NCBI GenBank assembly: GCA_949751835.1
Contig: CATKHK010000023.1
Coordinates: 310,001-374,000, forward strand
Reading direction: 5' to 3'
Source of the DNA: Blepharisma japonicum
Lineage: Eukaryota > Ciliophora > Heterotrichea > Heterotrichida > Blepharismidae
DNA: 64,000 nt
A program made the translations under genes and the position numbers. Positions 2,386 to 63,996 of the stretch are shown here, in pieces. Under the pieces are notes generated by a model, which was given only the letters and a program-made list of their open reading frames with translations, did no database searches and had not been told where the DNA came from. Position 1 is the first letter of the stretch. Each line of letters begins with the position of its first letter.

Positions 2386-3393
2386 TTATAGTAATATTTT
2401 ATATTTTTCTTCATTAGGGACTGCATTTACACAGATTTTCCCATCATAACTAGCACTAGCGAAAAACCAAGCTTCAGCGGCACTCCAGCATATACTGTAC
2501 ACAGAATCATCAAATTCTTCAATTTTGCTTAACATTTCGTCGTTTTCTCTTTCAAAAAAGCTTTCGTCTACTGGGGCTGAGCTTCCTGATACAATCCTGT
2601 GAAGTCCGACTGTATTATCTGAGCTAGAAGTAAGAAGGAGCTGGTCATGGTAGTTATTGAACTTTACTTGTCAAACCCAGTGAGAATGCTCCTGCAGGAT
2701 TTTCAAGCAGCTGTCTTGTTTTCTCATGTCCCAAAGCCGAATGGTGGTGTCTTTTGAGCAAGTTGCTAGATGATATGGATTATTTGGGTTGAAATCAATA
2801 TCAAGAATTTTGTCTCCATGTGCATTAGGAATGTAGTATTTTATGTTTTTTTCTCTATTATCATATATATGTAAGCAAGCTGGATATGTAGCGATCGCAA
2901 ATAAAGAAGAATGATGAGGATCATTGCGACTTGTGGTAATTGATGGAAGATCATAAGAAAAATTTGGTGAAAATGAAGAGAGATCATAAGAAATCATAGA
3001 TGTGGAGGTTGATACAATAATCCCGGTGTCTGTCCAATTCAGAGAATTTATTCTTGAAGTCATTTTGATTTCTTGTAGGACTTCTAAATTTGACTCCGCA
3101 AATTGGACAAGTTCAAGCTCATTATTTCCGTTTGCTATAGCTGCTTTGTTGGGATTCAGATGATTTGTATTGATAATCCAAATTTCGCTTGGATGCTCAT
3201 AAACTGCTGTTTGTTCTACTGCGGTTCTATCGTCATCATAGCTCAGCAAAATTACCTTATTAATAGCTTTCAAGCTTTGTGTTCCGACTAAAAATTGATT
3301 GACTTCTGTATTGTATTTAACTGGGCATATGCTTCTGCACTATGTTTATGATACCTTATAGTCTTCTCCTATTCTATAAACTGCTTCTTGCAT
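2386..3393 (-). CDS. EIPR1: EIPR1/TSSC1-like WD40 protein
   Basis: 330-residue WD40 protein. Several stretches match what is known of EARP-interacting protein 1 (TSSC1): FLVGTQSLK near the start, a DLDFNPN-x-PYHLAT repeat, LQEHSHWVW, HDQLLLTSSSD, DSVYSICWSAAEAWFFAS-SYDG and the extreme C terminus KYKILL. In animals the protein binds the EARP and GARP tethering complexes and acts in endosomal recycling and dense-core vesicle traffic; the same role here is inferred. One 15-nt intron (3340-3354) is needed to join the first 13 codons to the rest, and TGA at 2671-2673 is the Trp after HSHWV. The start was set by the homology of the first exon. Its stop codon touches that of the FHA gene. Confidence 0.88.
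3340..3354 (-). other. 15-nt intron in EIPR1-like gene
   Basis: GTATCATAAACATAG; contains an in-frame TAA, so it must be removed to reach the conserved FLVGTQSLK segment. Confidence 0.88.
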
Positions 3394-3432
3394 ATTTTTA
3401 CTTAAATTTATTTCATATGTTTTCTTATTAAA

Positions 3433-5145
3433 TTATCTTGAGCTGCCTATACCACAATTAAGATTTACCAAAATTGCTGTCACATTGTCATTTGTTCGGT
3501 TTTGGAAAATTACTTCGTTTACAAGCTCTCTTACAACTCTGTTGGGATCTTGCTCCGTCGCATGCATCAGGATTAGTTTATTTTTTATTATTTCAACAGC
3601 TTCTTGGCTTGTATAAGCATCAAATAGCCCATCACAAGCAATTAATAAAAATTCGTCTTCTTGAGGATTAATAAAGATTTGAGAAATATCAGGCTCAATC
3701 GAAACAAGTGGGCCATGCAATTGATCAGGGTCCCCATCTGTAGTAATTAATTTATATTCAAAATCGCCGAAAGCTCTAGAAACTGCTAACCGAGATTGAA
3801 GGCGGCCAAGCGTTACTTTTCCTCCAAATTTTTTAATTCTTTCGTGCTCTATCGGGTTATTAGGCTTGTGATCATTTGATAGATTAATTGCAGTACCATT
3901 TCTACACAGAACAGCTCTTGAATCTCCTAAGTTTATAGTGATTATGCGATCACCCATGATTATGCAAGCTATACATGCAGAGCCAACACTATGAGAAGCT
4001 TCGGGGTATTTTTCATAAAATTTTTGGTCTACAATAGAAAAGGACTCGATTATGGTATCTCTAAGCGTGTTCATCACATCTCTAGTTCTTTCATGTCTAT
4101 CTATTAGCCTCTGTCTTATTTCATAATGAAGATTCTCTTTTAAGAATTCTGAGCATATATGTCCACCATGCCCATCATAAACTGCATAATATGCTAATGG
4201 TAATTCTTCAAATATAAACAAATTATGGCAAATCACATCTGTATCTTCCATTTGTGGTCTATTTCCTTGTGCCGATCATCGTCCTACATTAAATCTTGAA
4301 GCTTCAAATTCTAATGACCCTATTTTTATAAAATTCCCTGAAAATAGTGGCAATTCTTCATCATCTTCTAGTTTTCTATATACTTCATGAGTCCCTTCAT
4401 TTTGGTTTATCAAAAAATGCCATGGCTTTCTATAAGAAATTCTAGCTTGCAATGGGGCTAAATTTGGCATAACAACATTACAGTTTTTATCACTTCCTAT
4501 AGTCACGTCTAAATAATGGGCTCGAAATTCAAAATTATCACAACGAAAAACCAAGGATTTAAGAAATCGAGGAAGCTTTTTGGCTTCATATAAATTAGTG
4601 GTTAACTGGATTTTTTCTTCTGGAGAAATTTGAAGTGACTCTATATTTATTTCAAATAATTCATCAATTGAGCTGTATTGAGGAATAGTTGTGTTTTCTA
4701 GCTTTAATAGCGAAATAATGCAGCTTTGCAAGGAAACTTCTTCGCCTTCGCTGACGCTGAAAATAAAATTTCCAATTTTATAAAGAGAGCCCATGCTTAT
4801 TGGTTCTCCGGGTAGTAAGGTTTCTTGCACTTTAATTCAGGTACCAGTATCCGAGTGCAAATCAGAAAGTAAATATAAAGAAGAATCCTTTAAAAATTGG
4901 ATTTTAGCGTGTCTTAATGATAAATTGGCATTTTCTATATAAGTTGTGACATCATATTGCTCTGGTTTTCCTGATCCAATGATTTCGCCTCTTGACTAAA
5001 TAAAATTTACTGAAGTATTTACATAAAAAAATCGTCCTTTATATAAGCCATCTGTGCATTTTAAAACTAGCTCATTTCGTCCTACTCCAATATCATCTAG
5101 TGTTTCTCGTTCTGGATTTATAATGAAAGAAACTTCAGGCTCCAT
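3433..5145 (-). CDS. PP2C-type protein phosphatase with two N-terminal FHA domains
   Basis: 565 residues. Residues about 15-100 and 185-280 are FHA domains (first: GEIIGSG, NLSLRHAKIQF, LHSDTGTW; second: VTIGSDKNCNVVM, LQARISY). Residues 285-565 are a PPM/PP2C Ser/Thr phosphatase with the metal-binding signatures QGNRPQMED, YDGHGG, LGDSRAV, VSRAFGDFEYK, ACDGLFD and TNDNVTA, all intact, so it should be active. FHA plus PP2C is known from plant KAPP, where the FHA domain recruits the phosphatase to phosphorylated receptor kinases, but KAPP has one FHA, a membrane anchor and a different layout. TGA codes Trp at 4276 and 4840. One intron (4996-5010). The upstream part has no membrane anchor. Ends at TAA. 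Confidence 0.85.
4996..5010 (-). other. 15-nt intron in FHA-PP2C gene
   Basis: GTAAATTTTATTTAG; an in-frame TAG ends it, and removal joins the two halves of the first FHA domain. Confidence 0.87.
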
Positions 5146-7349: not shown

Positions 7350-7385
7350 CTGGTTTAGTCTTGTAGTTATAATCTAATTAAATTA

Positions 7386-8834
7386 TTATTTAGGCGACCC
7401 GGGAGTTGTAAGATTTCGAGGGCTTTTAGGGTCAGAATAAGAAGAAAAGAAATCAGCAACTCCATCCCATCGCTCAGTTTTCTTTAAATTAGGGATTACG
7501 TATTCTTCAAATCTGCTTGGCAGACGTTGGGATTCTGGAGATTTGCTACGGCTTAAACTCTTGCTGTATTATCATTACTCATTATTTTTGCTTCTTTTTA
7601 GTCTATCCTCTTTAACTATGGCTGGCTTATTTTTGTCCCATTTTCCTCTGCTTGACAGAGGACCATCACCTGAGAGATCTTCGGTCTCAATAGTGTCTCT
7701 CGGACTATAGGTGACTGCAGATGAAATTTGTTGATTTAATAAAGCAAGCCTTGAGTTTTGTTTATCTAAAACTGATAGTAATTGCTGACTTTCCCCGATA
7801 AGTTTTGAATATTCATCTTCGTCTCTAAATGAAGAAGGATCATATTTTTCAGCACAAGAAGGGTAGTGGCTGCTTATTAATGAATTAAAAGTTTTGTCAG
7901 TTTGAGTCTGGATTAATTTATCTGATAATTTTTTATTCTGGTCTAAAGATGCAGCTCTTTCTCTAGTAGAGGTTGCATAATAAGAATCACAGTCATAATT
8001 AGTATTCGTAGCTTCTTCTTTAGAAATTTCTAACTTTGAAATCTTTGTATGATGAAAATTTCTTAAAGGGGAGTTTTTTCTTATCCCATAATAATTTATT
8101 AAATCCACAATAAATTTCATCATTTTTAGCAGTACATCAGGAAATTCTTGTTTTTCTATTGCCTCTCTTAATTTTTTAGAACAAATTACTCTTGATTTGA
8201 ACATAGTGTACACACTTGGAGAATGATGCACTTTTTCAATGATATAATTCACATACTGCATAATTTTCCCCAAAACCCCTAATGATTCGTCTTCAAATTT
8301 CCTTTCAGCTTCTTTTATGTAATTACTGCTCACTAATTCTTTTCTCAATGCTTGATTAGCAGATTGCAACTGCTCCCATCCATTTATCTGCATTTTTAAT
8401 GCTTCAGCCAACTCTCTAATCCTGCTTTCCTGATCATTTATTATCTTGCTTTTCTCATGATTCATTTTTTTCAATTTTTTCAATTCTTCTTGCAAGCCTT
8501 CGCTTTTGATTTTTAATTCTTCAGTTAGTCTAATTGCTTTTCTTCCATTCATAATTTCTACTTCAAAGCTTTGCAATCTTTCACGCAGATGCTTTTCTAT
8601 ATAGTCTTTCTCTGATAAACTTGTTTTTAATGCTTCTCTAAGTGCATCTCTTTCCTTTCTTAGTGATGAAATGGCTTCAGTTGCTTTTGATAAGTCCTGC
8701 TTCATTAATTCAAATTTTGAGGATTCGTGGCTTTTAGAAGAATCATATTTTCTATCAGTATAGCTGTAAGAAGACTCTAATAGTTCCTCAGCTTGCAAAG
8801 GCATATGCAAATCAATATTGCGGCGATATGACAT
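7386..8834 (-). CDS. coiled-coil protein
   Basis: 477 residues. Residues about 25-180 form a strong coiled coil (heptads around SSLRKERDALREALK, LKIKSEGLQEELKKLKK); the rest is polar and Ser-rich. Family not recognised. An open frame extends upstream to 8900, but the preceding DRC7 gene ends at 8854 in the same region, so the start at 8834 (MSYRRNIDLHMP) is preferred, 19 nt after that stop. A 15-nt intron (7564-7578) removes a TAA and adds a 59-codon tail rich in SRSKSP-like motifs, ending at TAA 7386-7388. Its position behind two axonemal genes suggests, but does not prove, a ciliary role. Confidence 0.75.
7564..7578 (-). other. 15-nt intron in coiled-coil gene
   Basis: GTAATGATAATACAG; holds an in-frame TAA. 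Splicing opens a further 59 codons of plausible coding sequence. Confidence 0.75.
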
Positions 8835-8853
8835 TAATGCTAATAAATTTATA

Positions 8854-11385
8854 TTAATCTCGTTTATGATATTGGTGCAATGCTGCCAAAATTGGCTCAT
8901 TTTTAAGCTTCAAGCTCATTTCTGCATATTTCTGCAAGGCTTGCTCTTCATGGCGTGCAACTCTTTGCTCCAAGATGTTGATCTTGAAGTCCATGTCTCT
9001 TGTAGATTCATCATATTTCTTTTGTTCTTCAGCAGTGACGTGGTCACCTTTTTTAGCGAATTTAGCCTATATAAAAATTACAGCATCATCATTCAGTGCT
9101 TTTCTTTCTCTTTCTAAGCTCTTTTTAATGATATCAGCTCTGTGTAGAAGTCTTTCTTTAAGTAAGCTCATAACTCTGTTTTCTACTTCTTGTGCTTCTT
9201 GAGCATTAAGCTGGCGATTCTCTAAGCCCATTTCTTTGAGGACTGGAGTTAAATAATCAATTGCAGTTACCTCTGTGACTTTTTCTTCTTCCCTTTCGCG
9301 TTCTTGCTCTTTACTTTTTTCTCTAGCTTTATCATATATAGTTTTGCTAATAAACCCTTTAACAAGCGCAATATTCACATCATTCTTTCTTCTAAGCTTA
9401 GACCACTCGTCTTCTTGTTCCTTATATTTCTCCATTTCTTGTTTCAGTGCATTTTCTTGGCTTTTTATGCCAGCGTAGCAAGCTTTTTCCATATCTTGCA
9501 GCTGGTGCAGCTTATCCTGATAGACTTCGTCGACTTCTTCATGCTCTTGCCCATCCTGCACCTTTGCTAAAGCTGTAAAATCGTCTCTTGGGTATTTTAT
9601 CACATTTCTTTTAATACTTCCAGGCTCATAATGATAAAAAACAGTTACAAATTTTTTCTTCATATCATAAATAATTTTTTCGATTCTGGTCCCTTTAGGC
9701 AAATTTGGATTTTTGTCAAATTTTTGAGTCATACTAGTAATGACTACTTTGTCTCCTAGGGTATAATCTCTAGCTGTAGACTCCCTTTTCTCGATTTTCC
9801 AGGAGCGGTATATCATAAAATCGTCACGGTCTTGGAAGTATTCTCGTGTTTTTTCATCGTAGACCTCTTCACGACGAATAAGACCATCAGTATTTCTTGT
9901 AGGGTAATAAATGGTTAATTTGCTTTTTCCATCTATTTCTACTATTTGTTTCCAATGGTATGGGCAGCCTGGATAATATTCTTCCACTGTTTTGTATTCT
10001 AATGGAAAACGTCGGCGTATAGCAAGCTTGTCAATCCTTCTTGCATAAATCCATCTGATTTCTTTGACAATATGGCGCTTATAGTCATGATAATATGTAA
10101 GCCTTCTTACAAGCCCATCAAATTGGCTATAATCAGCATAATAGTCAACTTTGCATTTTTCATAGAAAAGTGTTTTTTCGCCCATTGTCCATTTTCTTGC
10201 ATATACTTCTCTATCAATTCTCATTTTAGGCGACCATGGTGGTGGTAAATCTAGCACATGCTCAATCTGCTTTACATATCCATCAGTTCCTATTTCATCT
10301 GGGTTCATATTTGCGTCATCTACAGCGCCTTCTTCTCCTTCTTCATCGAAATGTTCTTCTTTTTTGCTTTTTTCTTTGACATTGCTTGTGTCTAGCATGA
10401 CATATTCCCAGTCACTACCGTTGTAAAAGTCAAAGCTTACCTCTTCTACCCCTCTATTAGGATACATATTAATCCAGAAATTCTGGTCATTCCATACAAA
10501 TTCTATATTCTCATATTTGCTGTCAGTCAAACTGAATGATCTCCCAGTCGTTGGCTCTACAAAAAAGCTTTCCTCGACTCCTCTTTTGCCTTCTTTAATA
10601 AGTATCCAGCAATGTAGCCTTTTGCCTTTCCACACATCAGGAGGCAAAATTTCAGGAGCGTCATCATCTATGGTATTTTCTATTTGAAGCCGCAGTTTTT
10701 CAGCTTCTTCTTCTTTTTGCCTTTTTTTGCTTAAAAATTCTGAAATTGGTGGAGGTTTCACTGGGATTTCGAATTCTTCTTCTTCATTTTGTTCAGCTAG
10801 CTCTGCTGTGTCTGGCATTTCTGACTCTAAAATTTCGAGAGGGCATCTTGTTCGTGTTTGGTCTCTTGTGGTAATTTCTTTAGGAGCATGACCATGCACA
10901 CAATAAGCATCATACCCAGCTCCTATTAGAATTGAGCACAAAACCATTGCAAAATCAAAGCAATCTCCATACTGCCAGGCCAAAATATTTGTAGGAGAGG
11001 GAATGTGGTTTGGGTAACGATCTGGAGGGTTGAGTTCTTCATATTGTAAGAAATTCGCAACGAATTCTGCAGATTGGGTCCATTCATAGAGCTCTAGAAA
11101 CGGCAGCTGGGTTGGCCTCACTGTGGTGCAGATGAATTTTTCAACCCCACATTCGTTTTTAGGGTAAAGAAGTAAAGTTCGCTTGAAATGTTCCCTATAC
11201 ACAAGTCTAAACTGCCGCTCGTAGTCTTTGACATGCTCAAGGACTAAGTCTTCTTTTGCTGAGTTTTCAATGAAACAATAAGGCAGATTTGGGTTTTTGG
11301 CGAAGTTGGCACATTTTACGTTCTTTTGAGAGACGAGAGTCTCTATTGCATTCTTTAAGAACTCTTTAGGGAACATTAAGTCCAT
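8854..11385 (-). CDS. DRC7: dynein regulatory complex subunit 7 (DRC7/CCDC135/FAP50)
   Basis: 838 residues, close to the usual length of about 870. The N-terminal part has the transglutaminase-like segment typical of DRC7 (WQYGDCFDFAMVLCSILIGAGYDAYCVHG, split here in description, at about residues 135-165), followed by a long charged middle with RRFPLEYKTVEEYYPG and a C-terminal coiled coil. DRC7 is a subunit of the nexin-dynein regulatory complex that links doublets in motile cilia. The first ATG after the upstream gene's stop (MDLMFPKEF) was taken as start. A 15-nt intron (9067-9081) removes a TAG and adds 71 codons, ending at TAA 8854-8856. All 13 or so Trp codons are TGG. Gap to the upstream gene 40 nt, downstream 19 nt. 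Confidence 0.9.
9067..9081 (-). other. 15-nt intron in DRC7
   Basis: GTAATTTTTATATAG; ends in an in-frame TAG. Removing it extends the coiled-coil tail to 8854. Confidence 0.88.
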
Positions 11386-24818: not shown

Positions 24819-26237
24819 ATGGAAGATCCTGCCCAAGACAACCTTATTAAAAGCAAATACAATCAGAAATCTCACGATCTCAGTCAGACTAATTGACGTT
24901 ATCTTCTTTTAGCTTTATCCGGTCTCCTCTGCTTTGGGAGTTATTTTGTATATGATAATCCATCTCCACTTCAGCCACAAATAGAAGATGTATATTTTAA
25001 ATAGAGACTTAATATAGACTCCTTTGATTTCAACTTATTATATTCTGTTTATTCCTTCCCGAACATAATTCTACCATTTCTTGGCGGATATTTGGTAGAT
25101 GCAGTTGGAGTGCGAGCTGCTGCTATTTTATTTGCTAGCTTAATATGCACAGGACAAGCTATTTTTGCTTTTGGAATTGGTGTAAGTTCATTTGCTATTG
25201 CAATTATAGGAAGAGTTATATTTGGATTAGGAGGAGAAAGCCTAAGTGTTACTCAAGGCTCTTTAATTTCCTTTTGATTTGCAGATAAAGAATTATCAAT
25301 GGCTCTAGGTATGTCAGTAAGCATTTCTCGTCTTGGGAGTGTCCTAAATAATATTTTAGAGCCTCAGTTCAACAACTCGACAGGATCTATTGACTTTGGC
25401 ATCTGATTTGGATTTTTTTTATGCATTTTCTCGCTCCTCATAGGATTTGGGATTGTTTTTCTTGATAAAAAAAGAGATAAGCGGCTAGGAATAAAAAATA
25501 AAAAGGTAGGGGAAGATTTCAGACTTTCTGATATAAAAAATTTTAAATTTTCATTTTGGATGATTTCTATAAACTGTTTGGTAGTTTATATCTGTGTTTT
25601 CAACTTTAATAATATAGCCAGCGGTTATTTTCAAACAAGATTTAATTGATCATCAGCTGAAGCAGGGTACTGGATCAGTGTAACATTTGGAGTTGCTGCA
25701 ATTTGCTGCCCAATTTTTGGGATGCTTATCGATAAAATAGGAAGGAGGACTGTGCTAATTTTTATTTGTGCAGTTTTGATGATAATTGTCCACACAATTT
25801 TGGTGTCATTGCCTGATTGTGATAAATGCGCTTGGGGTGGGCTTAGTCTTTTTTTATTAGGATTTGGGTATTCTATATATGCGTCCGTAATTTGGGCTTC
25901 GATTCCATATATAGTCGAATCAAAATCAGTAGGATCTGGGTTTGGAGTAGCTATGTCAATTCAAAATTTAGGACTTAGCTTTGGACCAATGATAGTTGGA
26001 AAAATTTATGATAAAACAACTAGTCAGCATGGTTATATGTGAGTCTCAATTTTCTTTATTTTCATGGGAATTATTGGGCTTATCACTGCAAGCTTGTTAT
26101 GGATATATGATAATAAGCATGGAGGAGTGCTTAGTTCAAAAAATCCTAAAACTATGATGATTAATTATTCAGAAAATACTCTAGGAGATATAGTAAAGGA
26201 GAGCGAAATGTCGATAGATGTTGCTAGGACCCAATAA
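24819..26237 (+). CDS. MFSD1-like lysosomal transporter (major facilitator)
   Basis: 467 residues, about 12 membrane spans. FVYDNPSPLQPQIED, NLLYSVYSFPNIILPFLGGYLVD, IGRVIFGLGGESLSVTQG and WFADKELSMALG closely follow MFSD1, a lysosomal dipeptide uniporter in mammals. The second half carries the MFS loop GMLIDKIGRRTVLIFI. TGA is Trp at about seven sites. A 15-nt intron (24990-25004) sits after IED. The polar C-terminal tail of about 45 residues is probably cytosolic. Substrate here is inferred only. Stop TAA. Confidence 0.87.
24990..25004 (+). other. 15-nt intron in MFSD1-like gene
   Basis: GTATATTTTAAATAG; ends in an in-frame TAG. Splicing gives PQIEDRLNIDS, in line with the family. Confidence 0.9.
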
Positions 26238-29215: not shown

Positions 29216-30460
29216 ATGAAAAGATCACTTAGTGACAGGTATCAAAACATATCAGAGCTTGAGCAATCGTTGGCGAAAATAAAAATGCAAGGAATCCAAG
29301 CAGTTTCACAGACAACTTTGGCTTCATTAAGGCACAAGTATGAGGCTATTCAGTATCAGTCTAGCTTGACAACTCTAAATTTCATATATGATGAATGTGT
29401 GTCTTTAGCACAAGAAATTATTTCCAATCCAAAAGTAGAGAGAAGCAACACAAATATACCAAATTGTGACCCTTTAATTGAAGAAATCCAAACAAAGCTA
29501 GAGAATTCAAAACAAATTCTTGAAAATACTAGAGAAATTGATAGGGCTTCTAATGAAGTATATTTTAGTGCGGAACTAATTCAGAGTCAAATAGCAAAAA
29601 TTGAAAGAGAAATCAGCAAGTTAAAAGAGAAAGAAATAGTGAATGAAAGAAAAATCATGGATTTATCACCTTTGGAATATGAAAATAGAGAAAAATTAAA
29701 TGAATTAAAAAGGGAAAAAAGCAAGTTGGAAGAAAGATTAAAAGAGATAGAAAGTCATGAAAAGGAGAAAATGATAGAGCCAAATACAGAAATTTATATA
29801 GAAAAGATCGAAAAAATAGAAGCATGCCTAAAAAACAGGGAAAATAAAATTTCCCAGCTAGAAGAGCAAATCCAATTCAAAGAAAAAGAAATTTCTAACC
29901 TTGTAATTATAAAATAGAAAGCTTCATATATTTCTATAAGCGGCATAACGAATAAATTGCAACAAGATGTTAAGGACCTCTATAAAGCATTTGATAACGC
30001 TTTAAGCCTTGGCTTAAGCATCAAATGTGACACTAATAAACTTAAAAACGAGCTTGAAATTAAAGATAAACAGCTTGAAGTGATGAAATCTCAATACGAA
30101 ACTCGAAAAATGGAAATTGAAGACCAGCTGTCAGACATTTTTAAAATAGAAGAAAATATCCCAAGTATTGAATCAGAAATCCAACGGAAATCGTCAGTCT
30201 TAAAGAGTGTAAGCGTAATTCAGATGAAAAATGATCTCTCTGTAAAAAATAACCAATTTCAAGAAATAAAAGATAAATTCACCTCTACAAGAAAACCGTT
30301 CTATGAAGCTTTATTTGAGAAAGCCAAGTCTGATATTGAAAAGAAACAGCGGCAAAAAGTAATAGAAAATTAGCTTGAAAAAGAAAAAGCGAAAATAAGA
30401 GAAGCAAAAGAAGTGGAGAAAAATAAAGAGTTCATTAAAATCCAAAATAGATATAAATAA
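29216..30460 (+). CDS. long coiled-coil protein
   Basis: 404 residues, nearly all predicted coiled coil by eye (Glu/Lys/Ile/Leu heptads such as LKREKSKLEERLKEIE and LKNELEIKDKQLEVMKSQ). Two 15-nt introns (29903-29917 and 30359-30373) each remove an in-frame TAG. No Trp codons. Family not recognised; structural or scaffold role likely. It lies 31 nt after the MORN gene and 38 nt before the exchanger gene, all on the plus strand. Stop TAA. Confidence 0.78.
29903..29917 (+). other. 15-nt intron in coiled-coil gene
   Basis: GTAATTATAAAATAG, in-frame TAG at its end; the downstream frame continues the coiled coil. Confidence 0.85.
30359..30373 (+). other. 15-nt intron in coiled-coil gene
   Basis: GTAATAGAAAATTAG, two in-frame stops (TAG, TAG region); splicing adds 29 charged residues. 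Confidence 0.83.
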
Positions 30461-30498: not shown

Positions 30499-32116
30499 AT
30501 GGCTGCACTAGTAGTAGAGTCAATCCTTTGCACTATTCTTGTCAGTATCTTTATGGTACTAAGTGTTTACATCCCAACATGGAAAGTAATTTTTTATTCA
30601 GATAAACTATTTCCATGAATCTGGCATTATCATTATTATAGGGATTTGTATTGGTTTAGTTATGGACGCAGTAACTATTATACAGATAGGCGATCCTTTA
30701 GCCAAATTTAACAGCCAAATTTTCTTTGATTTTATGCTGCCTTTTTTAATTCTATCAAGTGGCTATAACATGAAAAGGCGGCGCTTTTTTGCAAATATTG
30801 GGATGATATTATTGCTTGGAATTATTGGAACTTTAATACAATTTGTACTTGTAAGCTCATCTGCTTATTTATTTAGTTTAGGAGGAGCTTTAAAAGACCC
30901 AGATGGACAAACTTATCATTTTTCGCCAAAAGAAGCGGTAGCGATAGGAGCACTTTTAGCGTCTTCTGATAGTGCTTGTGTGCTAGCATTGGTAAATGAA
31001 TCAAAAGCACCTAAATTACATTCAATTATTTTTGGAGAATCAATTATGAACGATGCAATGTCCATTTTACTTATTCACACACTTCCTATGGTCAGTTTAA
31101 CAAATGTTTCTGCGTCAGAAGTTTTTGTGTTTTTAGGAGTATTTTTATATTACGCTGTGACTAGTATTTTGCTAGGAATTTTTTTCGGGGTAATTTCTGC
31201 CATTTTAACAAGAAATTTTGAAATATTAAGAGAAGACCCAAGTAAATCTATAGCGCTGCAGCTATATGTATCACTTATGAGCTATATGTGCGCACAAGCA
31301 TTCGGATTGGCAGAAAATGTCACTTTAATGGTATGTGGAATTATTTCAGGACATTATGCCTGGCATAATTTAGGCAAAACTTCCAAAATTGTGGCTTCAA
31401 ATGGAATTTCTTTTATTGGGGATGCTTCAGAAGCTTTGATTTTTTCGTATTTAGGCTTAACAGCATTTTCATATAAAAATGATCATATTGACTTTGTATA
31501 TATTTTTACTATAATCTGCTCAACAATGCTCGCAAGGCTAATTAGCACTGTTTTGCTTTTATGGGTAGCTAGGTTAGTTACAAGACACAAATTTCATATG
31601 ACAAAACGAGCTATTTCTATTGTATGAATGGGAGGGCTTATTCGAGGAGCTGTCGCTTATGCATTAGCATTAGATCTTGACTATAAAGATAAAAAGATTA
31701 TTACAATTACTGTTTTAGGCGTTGTTATTACTACTGCTGTTATATTTGGGTCTTTATTGCCATTATGGGTTGCGAAAATAAAGCCAGATGGCTTAGATAT
31801 TGTTTCTATGGCTAATGAAATTAGAGACGAAAGCTTAAGTATGTCAGTTTTGGGCAAAAGGAAAAGTCTTTATATCACAAAAGAAGAAGTTTTGCCTAAA
31901 AATTGAATTCATAGGCATTGGAAAAAAATTGACGAAAAATATATTAAGCCTTGCCTCATTCATCCTGATCCTTTAAAATTGCATTATCGAGAAGTAGAAG
32001 AGTTAAACGGAAGAATGCAAGAAGTAGTTGAAATGAGCATGGAATCGATTTCTATGTCATTTAAAGATAGAAGTTCCCAAGACACTTCAGCTTTTTTTGG
32101 GAGAGAAATGAGTTAA
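30499..32116 (+). CDS. Na+/H+ exchanger (NHE/CPA1 family)
   Basis: 533 residues, about 11-12 membrane spans. NHE landmarks: FHESGIIIIIGICIG (family PESGxxxxxG), FFDFMLPFLILSSGYNM, the ion-site segment LLASSDSACVLAL (usual ATDPV is changed, Asp kept), IIFGESIMNDAMSILL with the Asn-Asp pair, and GGLIRGAVAYAL. It exchanges H+ for Na+ or K+ across plasma or organelle membranes. A 16-nt intron (30586-30601) corrects the frame between the first exon and the rest; Trp at 31625 and 31904 is TGA. The cytosolic tail is short, about 90 residues. Stop TAA. Confidence 0.9.
30586..30601 (+). other. 16-nt intron in NHE gene
   Basis: GTAATTTTTTATTCAG; the two coding parts are in different frames, offset by 1, and only a 16-nt removal gives the conserved HESG segment. 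Confidence 0.92.
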
Positions 32117-36283: not shown

Positions 36284-38980
36284 ATGGGCTGCAGCTGCAT
36301 TAAACCAGATTTAGGAAGAGCACCAAGCTATATAGTACCAGAAAGCCCTATCCAAAACCAAAATAAGCCAGATTTCAGCAAAATATCGACGATATTTCCA
36401 TACCCCGGATCCACAGGACCTAAACAAAGGCACAAGAAACCTATAATCGATCTAAGAAGAATGCTATATACCAATTCTGAAGCAAGCTCAGCAACTGTGA
36501 ATGATAGAGAAAAAAACAAAGAAGATGTAAAATTAATACTGGAAGTCATTAACAAGCATTCTATCTTGCAAAATCTTGATGAGGATAGTAAAATCGCACT
36601 TGTCAAAAATATGAAATTCTATGAAATAGGACCTAGGGAGATGATTTTTGAACAGGGACAGCCAGGATTTTGCTTTTATGTGTTGTCTTCAGGAAGAGTT
36701 GAACTGAGAGTAGACAGTGAGCGAAAAGGGATCCTAAAAGCAGGATCCGGATTTGGAGAACTAGCTTTACTTGATGACAGGCCTCGCTCTGCAACAGTTC
36801 GAACTATCGAGCGCTGCTCTTTGTGAGGAGTAGACCGCCAAACATTTAAAGATGCCGTTAAAAAAGTAACTGCTTTAAACTACGATGAAAACAAGGCTTT
36901 CATCGAAAGTGTCCCACTTTTTCAGACCTTTACTAATGTACAAAAAGATGCTTTATTGTCTTCTCTTGTCACACAAAAATTTTCCAATTGTGAGAGGATT
37001 GTAAAAGAAGGAGACACTGGAGATTTATTTTACATTATTAAAGATGGAATTGTGTCTTGCAGTGAAAATGATAGAGAAATGAGACAAATGGGGAAAGGAG
37101 ACTATTTTGGAGAGCTTGCGCTTCTTTATGATTCTAAAAGAACTGCGACGATTACAGCAATTGGAGAGGTAAAATTGGTTTCAATTGGAAGGAAATCACT
37201 GATAGAGGTGCTTGGAAATAATTTAGAACAAATTTTAAATAGAAATTCTCAGAGAATAGCTGTAGAAAAAAGTGATATGTTGAAAATCCTTTCAACAGAT
37301 CAAAAGGAAGCAATTTTCAATACGATGAGGGTATCTATTTATAAAGCAGGAGAACTTGTTATCTCAAGAGGTACCCCAAAAGGCTGCAATCTCTGAATAA
37401 TCACCAAAGGTAAACTTAGAGGCCCAGTTGGCACCATGGAAACTTTTTCGTGTATAGGTGATACAGAGCTCTTTGAAGACCCCAGAGAAAATTATTCTGT
37501 AGATTTTATTTCAGAAACCGAATCAATTATAGCACATATAACCAAAGAAGAAATCGAACAATGTATAGAAGGAACACTTAATGAAATCCAAGCTATGAAT
37601 GAAATTATTGGAATATTAAAGAGCATCCAATTACTAAAAGGATTATCTAAAGAAAGATTTAAGCTTCTAATTAGAGCATTAAGAGAAATACATTACTCAA
37701 ACGGGCAAGTTATTGTCGAACAAAACAGCCCTGGAGACTCATTTTTTATTGTAAAATCTGGCACAGTCAGTGTACAGAAAGATGGAATTAATATCCGAAA
37801 TATAACAAAGCATGATTATTTTGGAGAAAGATCGGTGTTATTTAATGATTTTAAAAGAAGTGCAACTGTTGTGGCAAATGGAGAAGTGGATTGCTGAATC
37901 GTTGGAAAGAAAGATTTTTTGAATATTATTGATGATGGGATTAGAGTGCAGCTATTAAAAAGAATTGAATTACAGGATGATATTATTAGTTTTGATGACA
38001 TTTTACCTATCAAAATAGTAGGGAAAGGTGCTTATGGAACTGTTTATTTAACAGCTCATAAAAAAGCAAAGATTTTTTATGCTTTAAAATCAGTTTCAAA
38101 ATCAAAAGTCTTCAAATGTGATATTTATCAAAATATTTTGCTCGAAAGAAACATCATGCTCCAATTAGACCACAACATGATTGTAAAGCTTGTAAAAACC
38201 TTCAAAGATGATTCCAGATTTTATTTTCTTATGGAATATGTACAGGGACAAGATCTATTTGACGTTCTCGCTGATTTAGGAAGTGTAAAAGAAAGCGACA
38301 CAAAATTTTACGCTGGGTGTTTTGTATTAATATTTGAATATTTGCATGAAAGGGATATAATTTACCGTGATCTCAAGACAGAAAATGTCATGATTGATGA
38401 AGAAGGGTATCCAAAACTTATTGATTTTGGGACTGCCAAAATAAGCCATGAAAGGTCTTATACAACTGTCGGGACGCCTCATTATATGGCTCCTGAGGTC
38501 ATTTTAGGCTCTGGATATTCACTTCAAGCTGATTTGTGAAGCCTAGGGATCCTGATTTATGAATTTCTATTTGGAAGAGTCCCATTTGGAGACAATCTTA
38601 ACGATCCTCATGAGATTTATGATAAAGTCTTGGAATATCGACTTATGTGGCCAATGGACCTGGACCCTGCTGCTAGCTCGAAAAACTTTGTGCAACAGCT
38701 TTTAAACAAAAATCCTGCTATGAGAATGGGAGGAGTTACCTCAAAATTAAAAGAACACAAGTGATTTGTTGGGCTTTCATGGGTAATTTTTACGTAGGAA
38801 CGACTAATTACAAAGCAGTATAAAGCTCCTTATATTCCTAAGCATAGGTCGCTTACATCTGATTTGGCTAACGCCAAAAAGAATCCTAGGAGTTTACAAG
38901 AGTTCATTTTATATGATGAACAATGTGAAGATTTTCCACGAAATCTTGAGTATCCTACAGATTGGGATGCTGATTTTTAA
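36284..38980 (+). CDS. PKG: cGMP-dependent protein kinase, alveolate type (four cyclic-nucleotide domains)
   Basis: 893 residues. Start MGCSCIKP is an acylation signal. Four cyclic-nucleotide-binding domains lie at about 90-200, 212-330, 335-440 and 450-560; domains 1, 2 and 4 keep the phosphate cassette (FGELALLDDRPRSAT, FGELALLYDSKRTAT, FGERSVLFNDFKRSAT), the third is degenerate. Kinase domain about 575-830: GKGAYGTVYLTA, YALKSVSK, YRDLKTENVMID, LIDFGTAK, GTPHYMAPEV, ADLWSLG. Four domains with a defective third is the arrangement known from apicomplexan PKG, unlike the animal enzyme with two. Five Trp codons that matter are TGA (36824, 37394, 37895, 38537, 38761). A 15-nt intron (38783-38797) joins the AGC C-terminal tail. 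Stop TAA. Confidence 0.93.
38783..38797 (+). other. 15-nt intron in PKG
   Basis: GTAATTTTTACGTAG; in-frame TAG. Splicing restores the AGC-type tail ending YPTDWDADF. Confidence 0.9.
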
Positions 38981-46029: not shown

Positions 46030-47295
46030 ATGGAAGAAGATCCAACTACACAGCTTCTAGCTTTACTTCAATCTAAAACTGAAGAGCTAAATACTCTTCA
46101 ATCCCAGCAAAACTCTTCACAATCCACTACCCTTTCCCGAGAAATTATCAATTTAGTTGATACTGCTCCTCCACTTAATGGCCTCCCCAAACTCGCCCGA
46201 GCCAAACTCCTCTATTATAAAGGCCGTGCATATTCCACAAAAGACACCTATGACAAATCAGCTGAAGATAACCTTACCAGAAGTGTCAAGCTTGACCCCA
46301 CAAATGGAGATGCCTGAAATTGGATGGGTGAAATGCTATACTTAAAAGGTGATTACGCCCAAAGTAAACGGTGCTTTGAAGGTGCCTTAGAGCATACAGG
46401 TCCTAATAAAGAAATTTTAAGAAAATTATCAATGATTTCGAGATTTGTGGGAAATGATGAGGAAAGAAAAAATAATGTGGCTAATAGTGTAGGACTAGCT
46501 AAGCAAGCTTTAGCTATTGATATCAAGGATGGAAATTCTTGGTATGTACTTGCAAATGCTCATTTGACGAATTTTTTTATTAATAGGCCATCATCTGAAG
46601 AATTAAATAGAGCATTGAAAGCATATGGACAAGCTGAACACTTTTTGGAGGCGCCGAATCCAGATTTATACTATAACAGAGGAGAAGCTTATAAGTATCT
46701 GGAAAGGTATCAAGAAGCGATAATAGAGTTCCAAAAAGCACATGAATTAGACCCAGCGTTAAATGCTCAAGGACAGATTAATCAGATTGTAGAACTAGTG
46801 AGCTTAATTAATCAAAAAATCAGGACAAGCTGCGGAATCAAGAAAAAAACGTTATCTGCTATGGTAAAAACAATACCTATCACAATAAAAAGCAAGCCAT
46901 TTGGAGAAAATTATACCCCTGCCCATTTAGGGCTGCTTGAGGCTGGAAAAAATCAATCAAAAATCCTTATCTGTAAAGTCTTAGGAACTGCTGCAAGTGG
47001 ACCAGAAGCGACTCCAGCCGTTTTTATTGCTTGTGACTCTCAAGGTATCTTTTTCTGTTTAAGTGTTTACAATATAAATTCACAAATCCATCAGCTTATT
47101 ACTTTCGAGTCAGTCCTATTTATAGGAGATCCCTTGTTATCAAAAGTCCAGCTTACTTTTGGAGAAATTGTAAAAAATATATAGAATATTGAATATTGAA
47201 ATATAAAAGTAGTGGACCCGAATTCCCTGCTAATTGATAGCAAAAAAATAGAAGGAGCATGCAGTCCAGGGGTTGTTGTTAACCAGGCTTTATAA
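46030..47295 (+). CDS. TTC5: TTC5/STRAP-like TPR protein
   Basis: 416 residues (human TTC5 about 440). TPR units from about 60 to 260: LLYYKGRAYSTKDTYDKSAEDNL, LKLDPTNGDAWNWMGEM, YLKGDYAQSKRCFEGAL, SWYVLANAHLTNFF and LYYNRGEAYKYLERYQEAI. The last 150 residues correspond to the TTC5 OB-fold domain (SKPFGENYTPAHLG). TTC5 binds p300/JMY as a stress cofactor and also senses nascent tubulin in tubulin mRNA autoregulation; which role applies here is unknown, though tubulin control would fit a ciliate. TGA 46315 and 47197 are Trp. A 15-nt intron (47170-47184) removes a TAG and adds the last 37 codons. Confidence 0.88.
47170..47184 (+). other. 15-nt intron in TTC5
   Basis: GTAAAAAATATATAG, ends in an in-frame TAG; the frame then continues 37 codons to TAA 47293-47295. 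Confidence 0.85.
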
Positions 47296-50555: not shown

Positions 50556-51519
50556 ATGGTTAGTGCGACCTGCTTTTCAACACTTGGAGTAACATGATGC
50601 AGTATCGCTTATATTCTTGCTGGTCTCTCATTTCTTGAATTACTTGCTACAGTATTTTAAAATCAGGGCTATCAAGTTTGAATGCATCTAAAATTATTTA
50701 GGATTTTCATGAATAAAGTATTAGCAATTCTGTATATCCAGCTTTTGCAAACAATATTTATGTTTATTCATTATATGATTATTGATTCAGCTTTTGATAT
50801 TTTGTTTTTAATTATGATTTATTTACAGTTCGTTGAAAATACTTTGGTGTTTTATTATTTTGCTGGGGAAGCCTCAAAAATGAAAAAGGGGAAAATGTAT
50901 AACATTATGGGCATTTCTTTGCTTATCGCAAACATCAGCTATTTAACTGGATACATGATTTATATAGGGATTGCTAGTGGCTCAGACGAGGATATTTATG
51001 ACTGCACGAATGGCATTTGGATATACTTGCGGGCAAGTGGATTAGTACTTACAGTCCTTTTCTTTATTTTAGGGGTTAGAATGGCTTATGAGCTCAAGAT
51101 TTTAAAGCAAAATAGTTTAATGATCAACACAAGCAGAGAAAAAGAACTATGGTAATTTTTCCATCAGGTTTTTGATTTTAATTGTGCTTTTTGGTAATAT
51201 TGTTGCTATGGTGCAGACCATGATACAAGTTTTAACGCCTCATAATGATTGTATAGCTCTATTTTCAAGTGCAAGCTTAGGAATCAATATCTTTTTATTC
51301 CTTTTAATAAGATTTATGAGTCAAGATATATTCAATGTTTATTGTTTATATGTATTCTGGGCAGGAAGAAAAGATTCAAGTGCTGAGGCGTCAGGAGTAA
51401 ATTTAATATAGATTTCTCTTCCTATAGATGACCCATTTGGATCACCATTGATGAGCCATTGCTCAAAAGAAATAGTAGAAGAAAATGTGGATTCAAGCCA
51501 AGAAATATCGTTTTCTTAA
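50556..51519 (+). CDS. seven-pass membrane protein, GPCR-like topology
   Basis: 305 residues encoded by four exons. Seven hydrophobic spans are visible: SIAYILAGLSFLELLATG, VLAILYIQLLQTIFMFIHYM, ILFLIMIYLQFVENTLVFYYF, MGISLLIANISYLTGYMIYIG, IYLRASGLVLTVLFFILGV, LWFLILIVLFGNIVAMVQTMI and LGINIFLFLLIRF. A short N terminus and a Ser/Glu-rich 45-residue cytosolic tail fit a receptor, but no GPCR signature (DRY, NPxxY) is present, so only the topology is claimed. Introns of 15 nt (50652-50666), 16 nt (51152-51167) and 15 nt (51397-51411). Trp at TGA 50595 and in YQVW. Stop TAA. Confidence 0.75.
50652..50666 (+). other. 15-nt intron in seven-pass gene
   Basis: GTATTTTAAAATCAG contains an in-frame TAA; joins LAT to GYQVW. 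Confidence 0.83.
51152..51167 (+). other. 16-nt intron in seven-pass gene
   Basis: GTAATTTTTCCATCAG; needed to shift frame by 1 so that ELW continues into FLILIVLFG. Lacks the A at the usual place (A is one base later). Confidence 0.82.
51397..51411 (+). other. 15-nt intron in seven-pass gene
   Basis: GTAAATTTAATATAG, ends in an in-frame TAG; splicing adds a 35-residue tail. Confidence 0.75.
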
Positions 51520-52217: not shown

Positions 52218-53690
52218 TTAATGTTTAGCATATTGTGATAAGTTTGAAGGAACCACAATGTAGTCTGGCTTTATTTCAACTAGAGGCTCATTTAAAATTG
52301 AATCTGAAGAAAATTCGTTTACACTGCCAGAGAGACTTGATGAGAACTGATCATTATAATGACTTTCTTCGGAAGAAATACTTGCTATTGTACACTTCAT
52401 TTTCTTTTTATTTAAGCGATTCCTTGTGAATTTATATAGTAAAGCAGCTATAATGATCCCTAATATTGCAGCTCCCGACACTATCATAATCATTGATGTT
52501 AAAGAAATCCCGCCTTTTGAGCTGCTTTTATTGGGAACATAATTTGATTTTGCTTGAGCAAGCCCAATGGTACTGTCATCAATATTTCAAACTGAATAGT
52601 AAGCGCGTAAGAAAACGTCCCCTAAAACTCAGCTTTCTCCAGCATTTTCTCCTAATAAAAGAGAGCAGAGCCCTGTTGTCGCATTCCAATGAAAATAATG
52701 GAATGCTGAAACTTGAAATTCTTGCCCATTCCCTAAATAAAACGAGAGAGGTGGGTAATTTTCTGTTGAGTTTTCATATGGACACTCGCAGTAAATATAG
52801 CCATTATTTGAGTCCTCCTCACAGCCGGAGTGGAACCGAAAAGCGTCTTTTATTGTTGAATGATCCAAAATTGAGGCTAAAATCATAGAGGTGCCAATAT
52901 CAAAAATCACACTTTTTGATTCAATTGCAAGCCCTGCATCTAAATGAACAGCTGCTAAAGGGACTTCCCAATATCCAGAAGAATTCGAAACGCTCAAATA
53001 AGTAAATTCATCATTATCTGAATAAGTATCTAAATCGCATCCTCCAAGCATAAGATTGGATGGAATAGCATCAGCAACACCATCTTCTTCAGAGCTTAAA
53101 TATAGCGAAAACATTGAGCTATTAGTCACTCCTTGAATCTTCAAGTTTTCTACGAAATTTGCATAGCCGCTGCTTAGTTGGCTGAAGCCAAGTCCTAAAA
53201 CACCATCAGCTAAAAATAAGTTTTCAGTATCTATAAAATTTTCATTGACCAGAACAAAGAATTGGCTGACACCAAGTTCTTCAGAGAGAAATACAGAATC
53301 CGTACCTATTGTCCCGCTAGCAGTAATATTTAAAACCTAAATAAAAGTTACATCAATTATTGTTGACAGAGCGGTGCTTACATAAGTCTTAGACTTTCCT
53401 GGGGCAAATGATCTTTGGATAGGCTCACAATTGAGGCACTCGTCTGAAACCACCCAAAGTCACTGTATAAAACTTACAGATTCAGCAGTGTCCAAAAGGA
53501 CATTGAAAGATTGAGGAGGGTTTCCAATGTTTATTTCCACTGAGTATTGGTTCTATATGTGATATACATTTTTATAGTTGTCAACATCAGTCGATGAACG
53601 CTTTTTGTAAACAGGGATGCTAATGCCGATTTCTTGATAAGGTAGCGAGTAGCAATACCATATTGAAGCTACTAGAATGATAGAAAACAT
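52218..53690 (-). CDS. membrane-anchored pepsin-like aspartyl protease
   Basis: 475 residues from four exons. Signal peptide (MFSIILVASIWYCYSLP), then a pepsin fold: YSVEINIGNPPQSFNVLLDTAESWLWV carries the first catalytic Asp but DTG-S is changed to DTA-E; VIFDIGTSMI carries the second Asp in DIGTS. GVLGLGFSQLSSG and the C-terminal WVLGDVFLRAYYSVWNIDDSTIGLA (two TGA Trp) confirm the family. A membrane span near 405-430 (MIMIVSGAAILGIIIAALLYKF) and a Ser-rich cytosolic tail make it type I, as in BACE-like enzymes. Introns 53553-53567, 53463-53477 and 53337-53351. Because the Gly of the first motif is lost, activity is uncertain. Stop TAA. Confidence 0.88.
53337..53351 (-). other. 15-nt intron in aspartyl protease gene
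   Basis: GTAACTTTTATTTAG, in-frame TAG; identical in sequence to the intron at 63739-63753. Confidence 0.88.
53463..53477 (-). other. 15-nt intron in aspartyl protease gene
   Basis: GTAAGTTTTATACAG has no stop in frame, but removing it gives DTAESWLWV, the exact spacing of DTGSSNLWV in pepsins. Confidence 0.82.
53553..53567 (-). other. 15-nt intron in aspartyl protease gene
   Basis: GTATATCACATATAG, in-frame TAG; splicing leads into YSVEINIGNPPQ. Confidence 0.88.
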
Positions 53691-59108: not shown

Positions 59109-59160
59109 TGTAATAATAAAACATAAAAAAATGCATTTAAACCAAATATATTTAAGTGTT

Positions 59161-60222: not shown

Positions 60223-61242
60223 ATGGAATTACAAGGAAAGATAAATGGGTCTTTTGGAATTCTATTTCTTACTATTTTAGGATTTATAATTTCATTAGAT
60301 TCGTGAGTATTCAAGATATGCTTAATGAATTTATTATCAACCACCTTTACTAGTATTTTTTTGATCATATACAAGCCAAATACTTTGACTTATTCTAAAT
60401 ATGAGGGATTGCGATATCTACTTTATGCGAATATTTTATCAATTAGCTTGACTTATTTATTTATATTTGAAATAGAAAATAAAGAAATCAGCGAAAGAAA
60501 AGGTGAGAAGTAAATAGATATTCTTGAAATTGAGCTTCAAACTACTACATGAATTATCGTAGCCATATTAGGAATTCATAGCTTATTTATTCATTTCTAT
60601 CTAAGCCAGCTTTCAAAAAAGAAAAGCATTTATACATTCGTTTCACCTGATAGATTTTTGCTTAAAGAATTGGAATTTATTTTGAAAATTAATTCAATTT
60701 CGATGACTATTTTGCTTCATCTAAATCTAACAACCTATAACTTACTATTCAGCTTTCTCTCATCACTTCCAATCATTTTATACCCAGCTCCAACACTTGA
60801 GAATTTTTATATTTTTTCTATCGTTGACGAAAATTCAGAATTATATTGAAAAACAATTTTTGCTTCCCAAAGCTATTACACATTCAAATCTATAATTATT
60901 CTACCAATCCTTGTAAATTATATATAGTCTCCAATATGTTGGAGCCTTCACTCTTTTCTATCTTACTTTTTATCGAAACGTACAGCTTGAAATATAATAT
61001 TTTTATATTTCAATTTTCAAGAAAATTACGATTATTCTTTATCAACATTTTTATATGAATTTCTTTTTTATTTAATTTTGCATGCTGCTATATGATCTCT
61101 ATTAAACAAATATGAATTCTTGCAATATAATCTGATACCATTTGGGCTTATTACGGCTCTATTTTGCTCTACGTGGCCTCTACAAGTATTTGGGCTTTCT
61201 ATTGCGGCGCGGCTTATCTATTTAGCTAACGTCATTATTTAG
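60223..61242 (+). CDS. multi-pass membrane protein, function unknown
   Basis: 329 residues from three exons, with about eight hydrophobic spans (FGILFLTILGFIISL, LLSTTFTSIFLIIY, YLLYANILSISLTYLFIF, WIIVAILGIHSLFIHFYL, SFLSSLPIILYPAP, FLFYLILHAAIWSLL, LIPFGLITALFC and AARLIYLANVI). No family recognised; the layout recalls the left-edge membrane protein but no clear sequence match was seen. Introns 60503-60517 (starts GTGAG rather than GTA) and 60913-60927. Four or five Trp codons are TGA. Stop TAG. Convergent with the USP-like gene, 18 nt apart. Confidence 0.7.
60503..60517 (+). other. 15-nt intron with GTG start
   Basis: GTGAGAAGTAAATAG; in-frame TAA. The only intron in the window beginning GTG; splitting a codon (AAA G/AT). 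Confidence 0.72.
60913..60927 (+). other. 15-nt intron in membrane protein gene
   Basis: GTAAATTATATATAG, ends in an in-frame TAG; frame continues 105 codons. Confidence 0.83.
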
Positions 61243-61260
61243 ATACAAATAATTATTAAA

Positions 61261-63996
61261 TTATCTTAACTTAGATTGATAATTAAATTCCCTCCCTCTT
61301 TCTGGAAACGTGTATCTGGGTTCTTCAATATACTCTTCTTGGACTTTTATTTCATTCCCTACATTTTGCTTTAGTTGTGGTCTTTTGCATTTCCAGCATG
61401 ATTCTGAGTACATAGAATTTGTGGATTTACACCCAACACAAGTCCACCTATTTAAAGACTCCTCGTTCTTTTGGCTTGGAAAATCAAATTCTTTTGGTCT
61501 TGGCTTTCTACAATTGCTACACAAATAAAACATTGATGAATTTTGAGTTCTGCATTCCTGGCAACTCCACTTAGAATCATTTTTTTCCATAGGTTTTGCC
61601 TTTGGCTCACTTGGCTTATACGAATATTCTTTCGCTAAATCTTTACTAGAAACTGAATCTTTTAATACAGGTCTGTCAGGATCTGGCCCAAAAGTGACAG
61701 TCCTTCCATAAGGCCTGTCAAGAGTTTCTGGATTCTTTACTCTTTCAGTAGAAATTTTGGCAGCTGAGCTAACCCCTCTCATTTTCCCTGCATCTCTGCT
61801 TGAATAAATATCTTCATCTCTTGCTGTCGAAGTGTTATAGCCAGATTCAGGCTTTTTTATAATTGAAGTATAAGATAAGCGGTCCTCAAACCCATTGGAG
61901 CTCATATTTCTTTTTCTTGCAGAATCTTGGTCTTCTTTATATCTTTCTCTGCCTCTATATTCAGTATCAGGCTTTGGATCACCTCCTTCTAGTAATGCTG
62001 ATAAAGATTTTGGACTTGAATTACGGTTATAACTAGTATTCTCACTTTTTCTTTGGAAACTCGCTCTTAAATCCATATCCTGTTTATTTCTTAGCTCTTC
62101 TTTATTGTATTTTCTATCAAAAGAATCAGTTGAATACATATTTTCTCTTGCATCGCCATAAAAAGTTCTGCTGAATGAGTTTTCATTAGTAGGAAATGCT
62201 GGCTTGTTGTATAAATTTTCTCTGCTGTCAAACTGGCTTTGACTTAAAAGGTCATCTTTTTTGTCCTTTATGGTATACCTACCTTTGTCCTCAGTTTTTG
62301 GAGGTGATGGAGGCTTTGGGGTGGCTTTGGATTTTATTTCATAAAACTTGTCCCAATTTATTGTCCTGCACCCTGCGCATTCGAAAGTGTCGGAATTTCC
62401 TTCTTTTGAGCATTTTTTACAAGTTCATGTAGCTTCTGCTGTTTCTCTTCTTGGAGAATTCTCTTGGTTATAGCTTCTTGGGCTTTCTTGGTAGCTAAGT
62501 CTGGGGCTTTCCAGTGCTGAAATATTTTTTTCATAAGTTTTTGGTCTATCTCTTGATTGGTCTACACTCATACTTTTAGGGTATTTATTTTCTTGTGAAA
62601 AATTTGCTTCTTTGTAATCTTGTGGGACTTCTTTTCTAAATGAATCTGGCTGCCTTGAATATTCATCTCTTTTGGGTTCTTGAGGATAATCATATTTTTT
62701 ATAACTTTCTGAAGGTCTGCTTGAAAAATATTCTGGGACTTTGCTTTGTTCAAAGCGATTAGGAGTATATTGTTTATAAGGCATATTGTAGTCTTCTCGC
62801 TTTTGAGAAATAATGTCGGCTGACTTATTAAGCTCGTCTCGCTTAGGAGGAATTTCTTGGGTATAAGGACTGTAGTCTTCTTTTTTTTGGTAATAAGGGT
62901 CGGTTGTTCTGTTTAATTCTTCTCTTTTTTGAAATAAAGGATTCGTAGGTCTGGATACTTCATCACGTTTTGGGTAAGATTCTTTATTTATTTCTTCTCT
63001 TTTTTGATAAAATTGCTCAGGTGTTCTTTCAATTTCTTCTCTTTTTTGGAAGTTTTGTTCATAAGGACGATTTATTTCGTCTTTTTTTTGTGCGAACCTA
63101 AGAAGTTTTTCAAAATCTGTAGAATTGATATATTGTGATGATGGCTTATACTCTCGTTTTTGTCTAAAAAATAGCATAACTGGCCTTATATTTCTGCTGA
63201 CTGCAACCCAGGCTAGCTGTAGCCACGATAAATTATCATTTGTTCCAAATTCTTCATATAGCGTCCACTTATCAGAATATAGGCAAGCAGGGTTATAAAA
63301 GTGTCCATTAAACCCAATTCAGCTTGATACTTCAAATTCATCTCTTCCTTGGCTGACTTGAGGCATAGCTTTAAAAGCCCTTGCAATTTCTTCACTATTT
63401 GACTCACTTTCCCATTTCATTTCTACTACAAATGCAGGTGGCATCATACTTTTGCCCATTGCATCTTCTATAGCTGATTTCCAGCTATCACTTTCTCTTA
63501 AACTTAATGAAGAAACCACTATAAAGGGGGAGTCTTCATTAGACAATGTAAAAAATGAGTCAGGCTTTCGATGCTCTGCAAAACCTCTTAAGGCCCTGAA
63601 TTCTTCAATAACAAATAAAAAAATCTCTACTGGACTAGTCTTTAATGATTTCAACGACGCTGACATGTAAGGGAGCAAAGAACTTAAATTCAAAATAGCT
63701 GCAGTGTCATTTGAATAATTGAAACTTAATGCCAGTTGCTAAATAAAAGTTACTTTAAGCTTTTCTAGGAAGGAAGAAGCTGGAAACTCTCGTTCCATCA
63801 GTGATTTCAGTACTGAATCAACAGAAAATAAAAATTGAAAAAGGCTGGTATGCGCTGAATGCTCTAAAGTTTCTCCGGCTATAAATCTTGGAGGCTTTCC
63901 TTTTGAAGGTTCAGCAGCTTGATATTTATATTTGGATTCACGATCATCTGGTTTTATATACGAAGTAGATGAGTATGAACGATATTCGTTGTCCAT
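61261..63996 (-). CDS. USP-like (apparently inactive) domain plus 14-residue repeats plus three RanBP2-type zinc fingers
   Basis: 906 residues, complete only 4 nt from the window edge. Residues about 40-275 resemble a diverged ubiquitin-specific protease of the USP53/54 type: SLFQFLFSVDSVLKSLM (where NSCFLNSALQ would carry the catalytic Cys, here HSAHTSLFQ with Ala), and GFNGHFYNPACLYSDKWTLYEEF ... RPVMLFF, matching the His box and C-terminal strand (His kept). Residues 298-406 are eight ~14-residue repeats. RanBP2-type fingers start at W519 (WTCKKC...C-x2-C, W from TGA 62425), W805 (WSCQEC...CSNC) and W846 (WTCVGC...CWKC). One intron at 63739-63753. Such fingers bind ubiquitin or RNA, so a ubiquitin reader is plausible. 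Stop TAA. Confidence 0.72.
62764..63090 (-). repeat. eight ~14-residue (42-nt) coding repeats
   Basis: Consensus QKREE(I/L)NR-x6, e.g. QKKDEINRPYEQNF, QKREEIERTPEQFY, PKRDEVSRPTNPLF, QKREELNRTTDPYY. Seven copies are 14 residues, one is 11. Copies have diverged in sequence but not in length. Confidence 0.85.
63739..63753 (-). other. 15-nt intron in USP-like gene
   Basis: GTAACTTTTATTTAG, in-frame TAG. Splicing joins FLEKLK to QLALSF and extends the protein to an ATG at 63996. Confidence 0.83.

Follow-up and report, generated by a model that had tools for sequence, protein, structure and literature searches.

What is the least RNA that a spliceosome needs? Introns of 15 nucleotides (nt), which rank among the shortest known, put this minimum to the test, and such introns are the subject of a 64,000-nt stretch of the genome of the ciliate Blepharisma japonicum (assembly GCA_949751835.1, contig CATKHK010000023.1, positions 310,001 to 374,000), hereafter the window, whose coordinates count from its first letter. 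Its 15-nt introns carry an adenine at position 10 (A10), so that the locus asks what these segments are and what the adenine does. We privilege the reading, with a probability of about 0.9, that they are U2-type spliceosomal introns of 15 nt with a consensus near GTAATTTTTA(10)TWTAG, in which A10 most likely donates the 2'-OH for branching. A preliminary description of the window had counted 18 supported introns of this length, all with A10. The analysis arrives at 18 as well, a set that spans positions 3340 to 63753, with 15 introns found by a caller blind to the base at position 10 and 3 added by a weight matrix.

Introns of 15 nucleotides in coding context

Intron calling covered the window and 200 kilobases (kb) of contig C6; the assembly holding the window has 45.2 Mb in 224 contigs. 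The caller accepts GT...AG segments of 10-40 nt if the sequence on either side is coding and joins in frame and if read-through meets an in-frame stop; its codon model was trained on 104 long open reading frames (ORFs). A stricter initial version, demanding 20 open codons per side, gave 8 introns at length 15 and was relaxed because it missed short terminal exons. GT-AG ends yield 39 calls at length 15 (15 from the window, 24 from C6), compared to 2, 6, 2, 6 and 5 calls at the same length for five other dinucleotide pairs used as controls, the profile of a class of 15-nt, rarely 16-nt, GT-AG introns. The strictest filter leaves 113 GT-AG candidates between 10 and 40 nt, of which 29 have this length, while every other length is represented by 6 candidates at most.

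A10 is found in 38 of the 39 calls, including all 15 blind calls of the window, compared to 32% of all GT-N11-AG 15-mers (p ~1e-17). In five calls, four with A and one with T, the detecting stop itself touches position 10; once these are set aside, A10 is present in 34/34. The preliminary description would have been refuted by a genome-wide lack of A10 enrichment. This was tested for one consensus, GTAATTTTTATATAG, which occurs in 78 copies throughout the genome against 5 for its three non-A10 variants together, with 2 and 4 matches to reversed-pattern controls. When every GT...AG 15-mer of the window is profiled, no A10 signal appears; it emerges in coding context only. The earlier statement that positions other than the splice sites and A10 vary does not hold, position 4 being A in 31/39 calls and position 9 being T in 30/39.

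The weight matrix was built from the called introns with A10 included, and the three introns it adds (30671, 53463 and 60913) are thus not independent evidence for A10. Its further window hits at 1712, 55126 and 57810 lack coding support and were not counted. The weakest members of the set are 51397, 60503 and 60913. The gene described before as carrying three minus-strand introns does so (53337, 53463 and 53553), and six further window introns also lie on the minus strand.

Homology supports 8 of the 18 window junctions, through five gapless alignments, two Pfam match ranges and one gain of score upon splicing. The TTC5-like product (47170) aligns to TTC5 without gap at junction 380, within a TTC5_OB match at 295-403, and the alignment of the cGMP-dependent kinase (38783) to PKG is likewise gapless. 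The aspartyl protease aligns to the pepsin family without gap at all three of its junctions; retention of intron 53463 would insert five extra residues beside the active-site DT motif. For the transporter gene (24990) the MFS_1 match 46-395 covers junction 67 and for the EIPR1-like gene (3340) the EIPR1 match 8-259 covers the junction at residue 13, both by match range only. The Na+/H+ exchanger (30671) scores 116.5 bits to the NHE1 chain 7dsw when spliced and 108.3 when retained; its best chain, 6z3y, aligns only past the junction and does not discriminate (147.6 versus 147.1). In the PP2C/FHA gene (4996) the junction falls at residue 45, just ahead of the FHA match.

Retention of an intron would not shift the reading frame because 15 is a multiple of three. 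Among 38 matrix hits scoring at least 3.5 in coding context, 35 have an in-frame stop and 3 have none, a proportion biased by the derivation of the matrix from stop-containing introns; permuted matrices give about 2.4 stopless hits. The less biased comparison with codon-shuffled ORFs, over 188 kb of long ORFs, reveals no excess of stopless intron-like 15-mers, with 3 seen and 3.4 expected for GTA.{5}TA..[CT]AG and 11 seen and 18.0 expected for GTA.{6}A..[CT]AG. Two stopless window introns, 30671 and 53463, have homology support. Stops in nearly all introns whose length is a multiple of three (3n) are consistent with selection for detecting retained introns, and short 3n introns of Paramecium and other ciliates are known to be stop-enriched too (PMC5014332). 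Retained copies, almost all of them carrying a stop, would then be cleared by nonsense-mediated decay. The contrast between T13 and C13 across phases was left unused, being confounded by the stop requirement of the caller. The stops are mostly TAG at positions 13-15 in phase 0 and TAA or TAG at positions 2-4 in phase 2.

The adenine at position 10 as a probable branch point

The best reading of A10 is that it is likely the branch adenosine. It would provide the 2'-OH for branching, generating a lariat loop of 10 nt and a tail of 5 nt. Among the small nuclear RNAs (snRNAs) of the genome, U2 keeps the branch-site-binding GTAGTA and U6 keeps ACAGAGA, in line with U2-type (major) introns. The earlier proposal of A10 as the obvious branch candidate fits the intact GTAGTA of U2 as well as the published analysis of Stentor coeruleus introns (PMC9505925), the branching itself being what we infer. 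The spacing of about 5 nt between branch A and acceptor given in the preliminary description is exact when counted from A10 to the final G, and that it lies close to a physical minimum is plausible. Three U2 loci score 161.2, 156.9 and 130.8 bits, the last one being clearly more divergent.

Several observations weigh against this assignment. The U-rich branch region pairs poorly by eye with GUAGUA, and the preference for T at position 9 indicates that this position is constrained as well, so that the conserved unit may be a TA dinucleotide and a protein could contribute to the recognition of A10. Both points favour a different role for A10, which, at -6, would belong to an extended 3' splice signal recognised by Prp8, U2AF or another protein, with branching at A8, A12 or another adenine. 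Past position 4, however, no other internal A comes near invariance (A8 in 15/39 and A12 in 16/39 calls), and the Stentor analysis picks the same A as branch (PMC9505925); we consider the extended signal unlikely. A scan of 16-mers adds a further difficulty. Among 35 matches to GTAATTTTTWWWWTAG, 16 have A at position 10 alone, 14 have it at position 11 alone, 5 have it at both positions and none lacks it at both; reversed controls total 12, meaning that about 12/35 would be chance matches, and the scan covers 16-mers regardless of coding context. The position of the branch A may thus perhaps not be set from the 3' end. Stentor has A11 in 442/633 of its 16-nt introns (PMC9505925). The caller hardly resolves this class here. 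One candidate 16-nt intron, at C6:178770-178785, has A10 and resembles a 15-nt intron with an extra T between A10 and the acceptor.

A more radical objection holds that the 15-mers are not introns at all and reflect assembly frame breaks, pseudogenes or a motif that arose by chance and was selected by eye. The introns of the preliminary description were indeed chosen by eye, the caller has a background of 2-6 calls with dinucleotides other than GT-AG, and these control calls too have a raised share of A10 (12/21, or 6/14 where the stop lies off position 10) because the required stop favours A. The sole GT-AG call without A10, C6 86281-86295, has T at this position and counts against an invariant A, even if, as one of the five calls set aside, it is probably false. 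The excess of A10 nevertheless remains strong, since it has p ~1e-8 even against the control rate (Fisher 1.6e-4, and 8e-6 for the 34/34 calls). Together with the 39 calls, the eight junctions spanned by homologues and the strong directional excess across the genome, this makes the objection barely credible. The privileged reading of spliceosomal introns has also to account for the identical sequence GTAACTTTTATTTAG reported in two unrelated genes, which lies exactly at 53337-53351 and 63739-63753, both on the minus strand. For a set of 18 introns the motif predicts only 0.11 identical pairs, and the one observed is mildly unusual, a point in favour of intron duplication or transposition. Against such an origin, the genome holds 17 copies (reversed control 4), when the motif alone predicts 19-31, assuming 5,000-8,000 introns. 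Eight of the 17 copies, including the two of the window, were examined: their 10-nt flanks differ and their phases are mixed, half of the copies being in phase 0 and half in phase 2. In every one of the eight the joined frame is open and the intron carries an in-frame stop, and six lie within the score limits of the caller, L004 and L005 failing them. We read the repeat as motif convergence rather than duplication, as a low-complexity motif predicts; duplication appears very improbable.

Splicing proteins and a possible loss of Prp18

Which changes in the spliceosome could accommodate a spacing of 5 nt? Slu7, Isy1 and Cwc25 are clearly detected in the genome, providing a partial control for the profile search with Prp18 (PF02840), which gives no match in the genome at E 0.001, a result that does not prove absence. 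Relaxing the threshold to E 10 brings up a single PF02840 candidate, with E 0.013, in a frame of 1,123 amino acids (aa); a 585-aa piece of it matches TPR_Sec16 and not Prp18, and it was rejected. We take this frame to be Sec31-like. Slu7 was found by profile in a short 334-aa reading frame (G000:C13:215415-216047). For Stentor, a published table records that BLASTP and TBLASTN retrieved neither Prp18 nor Slu7 (PMC9505925); the two ciliates are thus alike for Prp18 and differ for Slu7. Cwc25 starts with MGLKFLNKKSWH, and its alignment with the human and yeast chains does not begin before KKSWH. It lacks the N-terminal glycine motif, which is Gly2-Gly3-Gly4 in the human protein and is also missing in Stentor (PMC9505925). 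The alignment of Isy1 with the isy-1 chain 8ro0 starts at residue 10 of the former and residue 5 of the latter. The extreme tip of Isy1 alone thus differs, being five residues longer according to predicted start codons. This is milder than in Stentor, where the Isy1 N-terminus is described as 'strikingly non-conserved' (PMC9505925).

In budding yeast the natural minimum from branch to acceptor is 10 nt, and the nearest sites used upon Prp18 deletion are at 7 nt; in Debaryomyces hansenii the distance is predicted to be predominantly 7-8 nt (PMC10711555). Structural work cited in the same paper predicts that Prp18 is a ruler setting the minimum distance, of at least 10 nt in yeast, and Prp18 and Slu7 are dispensable at short distances (PMC10711555). 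Loss of Prp18 would therefore fit a spacing of 5 nt, the link between the two being a hypothesis. The introns of the red alga Cyanidioschyzon merolae are not known to be as small as 15 nt. Since C. merolae lacks both Prp18 and Slu7 (PMC10711555), loss of Prp18 alone would be insufficient. We tentatively propose, as a possible scenario that may well prove wrong, that heterotrich spliceosomes lost the Prp18 ruler and altered the active-site tips of Cwc25, and perhaps of Isy1, changes that together allow the 5-nt spacing and the 10-nt lariat, after which a fixed 3n length became policed by stops. Prp18 could alternatively have been lost in all ciliates, and its loss may have come before intron shrinkage, after it or independently of it. 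Among the open-licence papers listed in searches for Prp18, none was found by title and abstract to link this protein to heterotrich introns, the Stentor table excepted. The link, if true, would turn the structural ruler proposal from yeast into an evolutionary prediction across ciliates of differing intron size.

Relatives, window introns and genome

The basic pattern of 15-nt introns with A10 is already published for close relatives. Introns of Stentor coeruleus are AU-rich and mostly GT-AG like the present ones, with 15 nt in 92.8% and A10 in 8,005/8,806, and the commonest among them, GUAAUUUUUAUAUAG, is also frequent in this genome (PMC9505925). The macronuclear genome of Blepharisma stoltei ATCC 30299 shares introns mostly of 15 and 16 bp, UGA read as Trp, CCCTAACA telomeres, 66% AT and high gene density, at 41 Mbp compared to 45.2 Mb here (PMC9942806). 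Heterotrich introns are reported to measure 15 bp in about 95% of cases and 16 bp otherwise, whereas Loxodes magnus, of the sister group of heterotrichs, has ultra-short introns with a mode of 17 bp and a negligible number below 16 bp (PMC11441545). In a comparison of ten species, Stentor and some others have a conserved A, which the rest lack (PMC10946202). Introns of Paramecium and other ciliates are about 25 bp or longer and 3n lengths are mostly underrepresented there, while here the standard length is itself 3n (PMC5014332). The present analysis adds the confirmation of A10 by a caller blind to that position and, on one consensus, by a substitution test across the genome. It also contributes a second heterotrich in which Cwc25 misses the glycine motif, as well as the hypothesis on Prp18. 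The introns of the window are compiled in Table 1.

Table 1. The 18 window introns, each of 15 nt and with A10.
Position	Strand	Phase	Gene and remarks	Found by
3340..3354	-	0	EIPR1-like WD40 gene	blind caller
4996..5010	-	0	PP2C/FHA gene	blind caller
7564..7578	-	2		blind caller
9067..9081	-	0	GTAATTTTTATATAG	blind caller
24990..25004	+	0	MFS transporter gene	blind caller
29903..29917	+	0		blind caller
30359..30373	+	0	gene shared with 29903	blind caller
30671..30685	+	0	Na+/H+ exchanger gene; without in-frame stop	weight matrix
34230..34244	-	2		blind caller
38783..38797	+	0	cGMP-dependent protein kinase gene	blind caller
47170..47184	+	0	TTC5-like gene	blind caller
51397..51411	+	0	weaker support	blind caller
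53337..53351	-	0	GTAACTTTTATTTAG; aspartyl protease gene	blind caller
53463..53477	-	0	aspartyl protease gene of 53337; without in-frame stop	weight matrix
53553..53567	-	0	aspartyl protease gene of 53337	blind caller
60503..60517	+	1	weaker; stop touches position 10	blind caller
60913..60927	+	0	weakest; negative downstream coding score	weight matrix only
63739..63753	-	0	GTAACTTTTATTTAG	blind caller

Intron density is uneven. A fresh segment of 30 kb (C23:280001-310000) gives a single call, with A10, where the average density predicts 4-5 and where the 64-kb window gives 15.

The window has a GC content of 30-36% in 4-kb steps. Its Rfam scan gives no match at the gathering score, and ARAGORN run with the bacterial code detects no transfer RNA in it. 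Reading TGA as sense yields more and longer ORFs, and long ORFs selected with TGA open contain 280 in-frame TGA in 62,800 codons, in line with UGA coding for Trp; the Slu7 and Cwc25 matches contain one TGA each. Stentor differs in using the standard code (PMC9505925). Runs of the telomere repeat CCCTAACA give 168 three-unit matches and none in the reversed control. The sites listed, roughly 100, are located close to the start of a contig or at high coordinates; those on C6, whose length is known, reach the very end of the contig.

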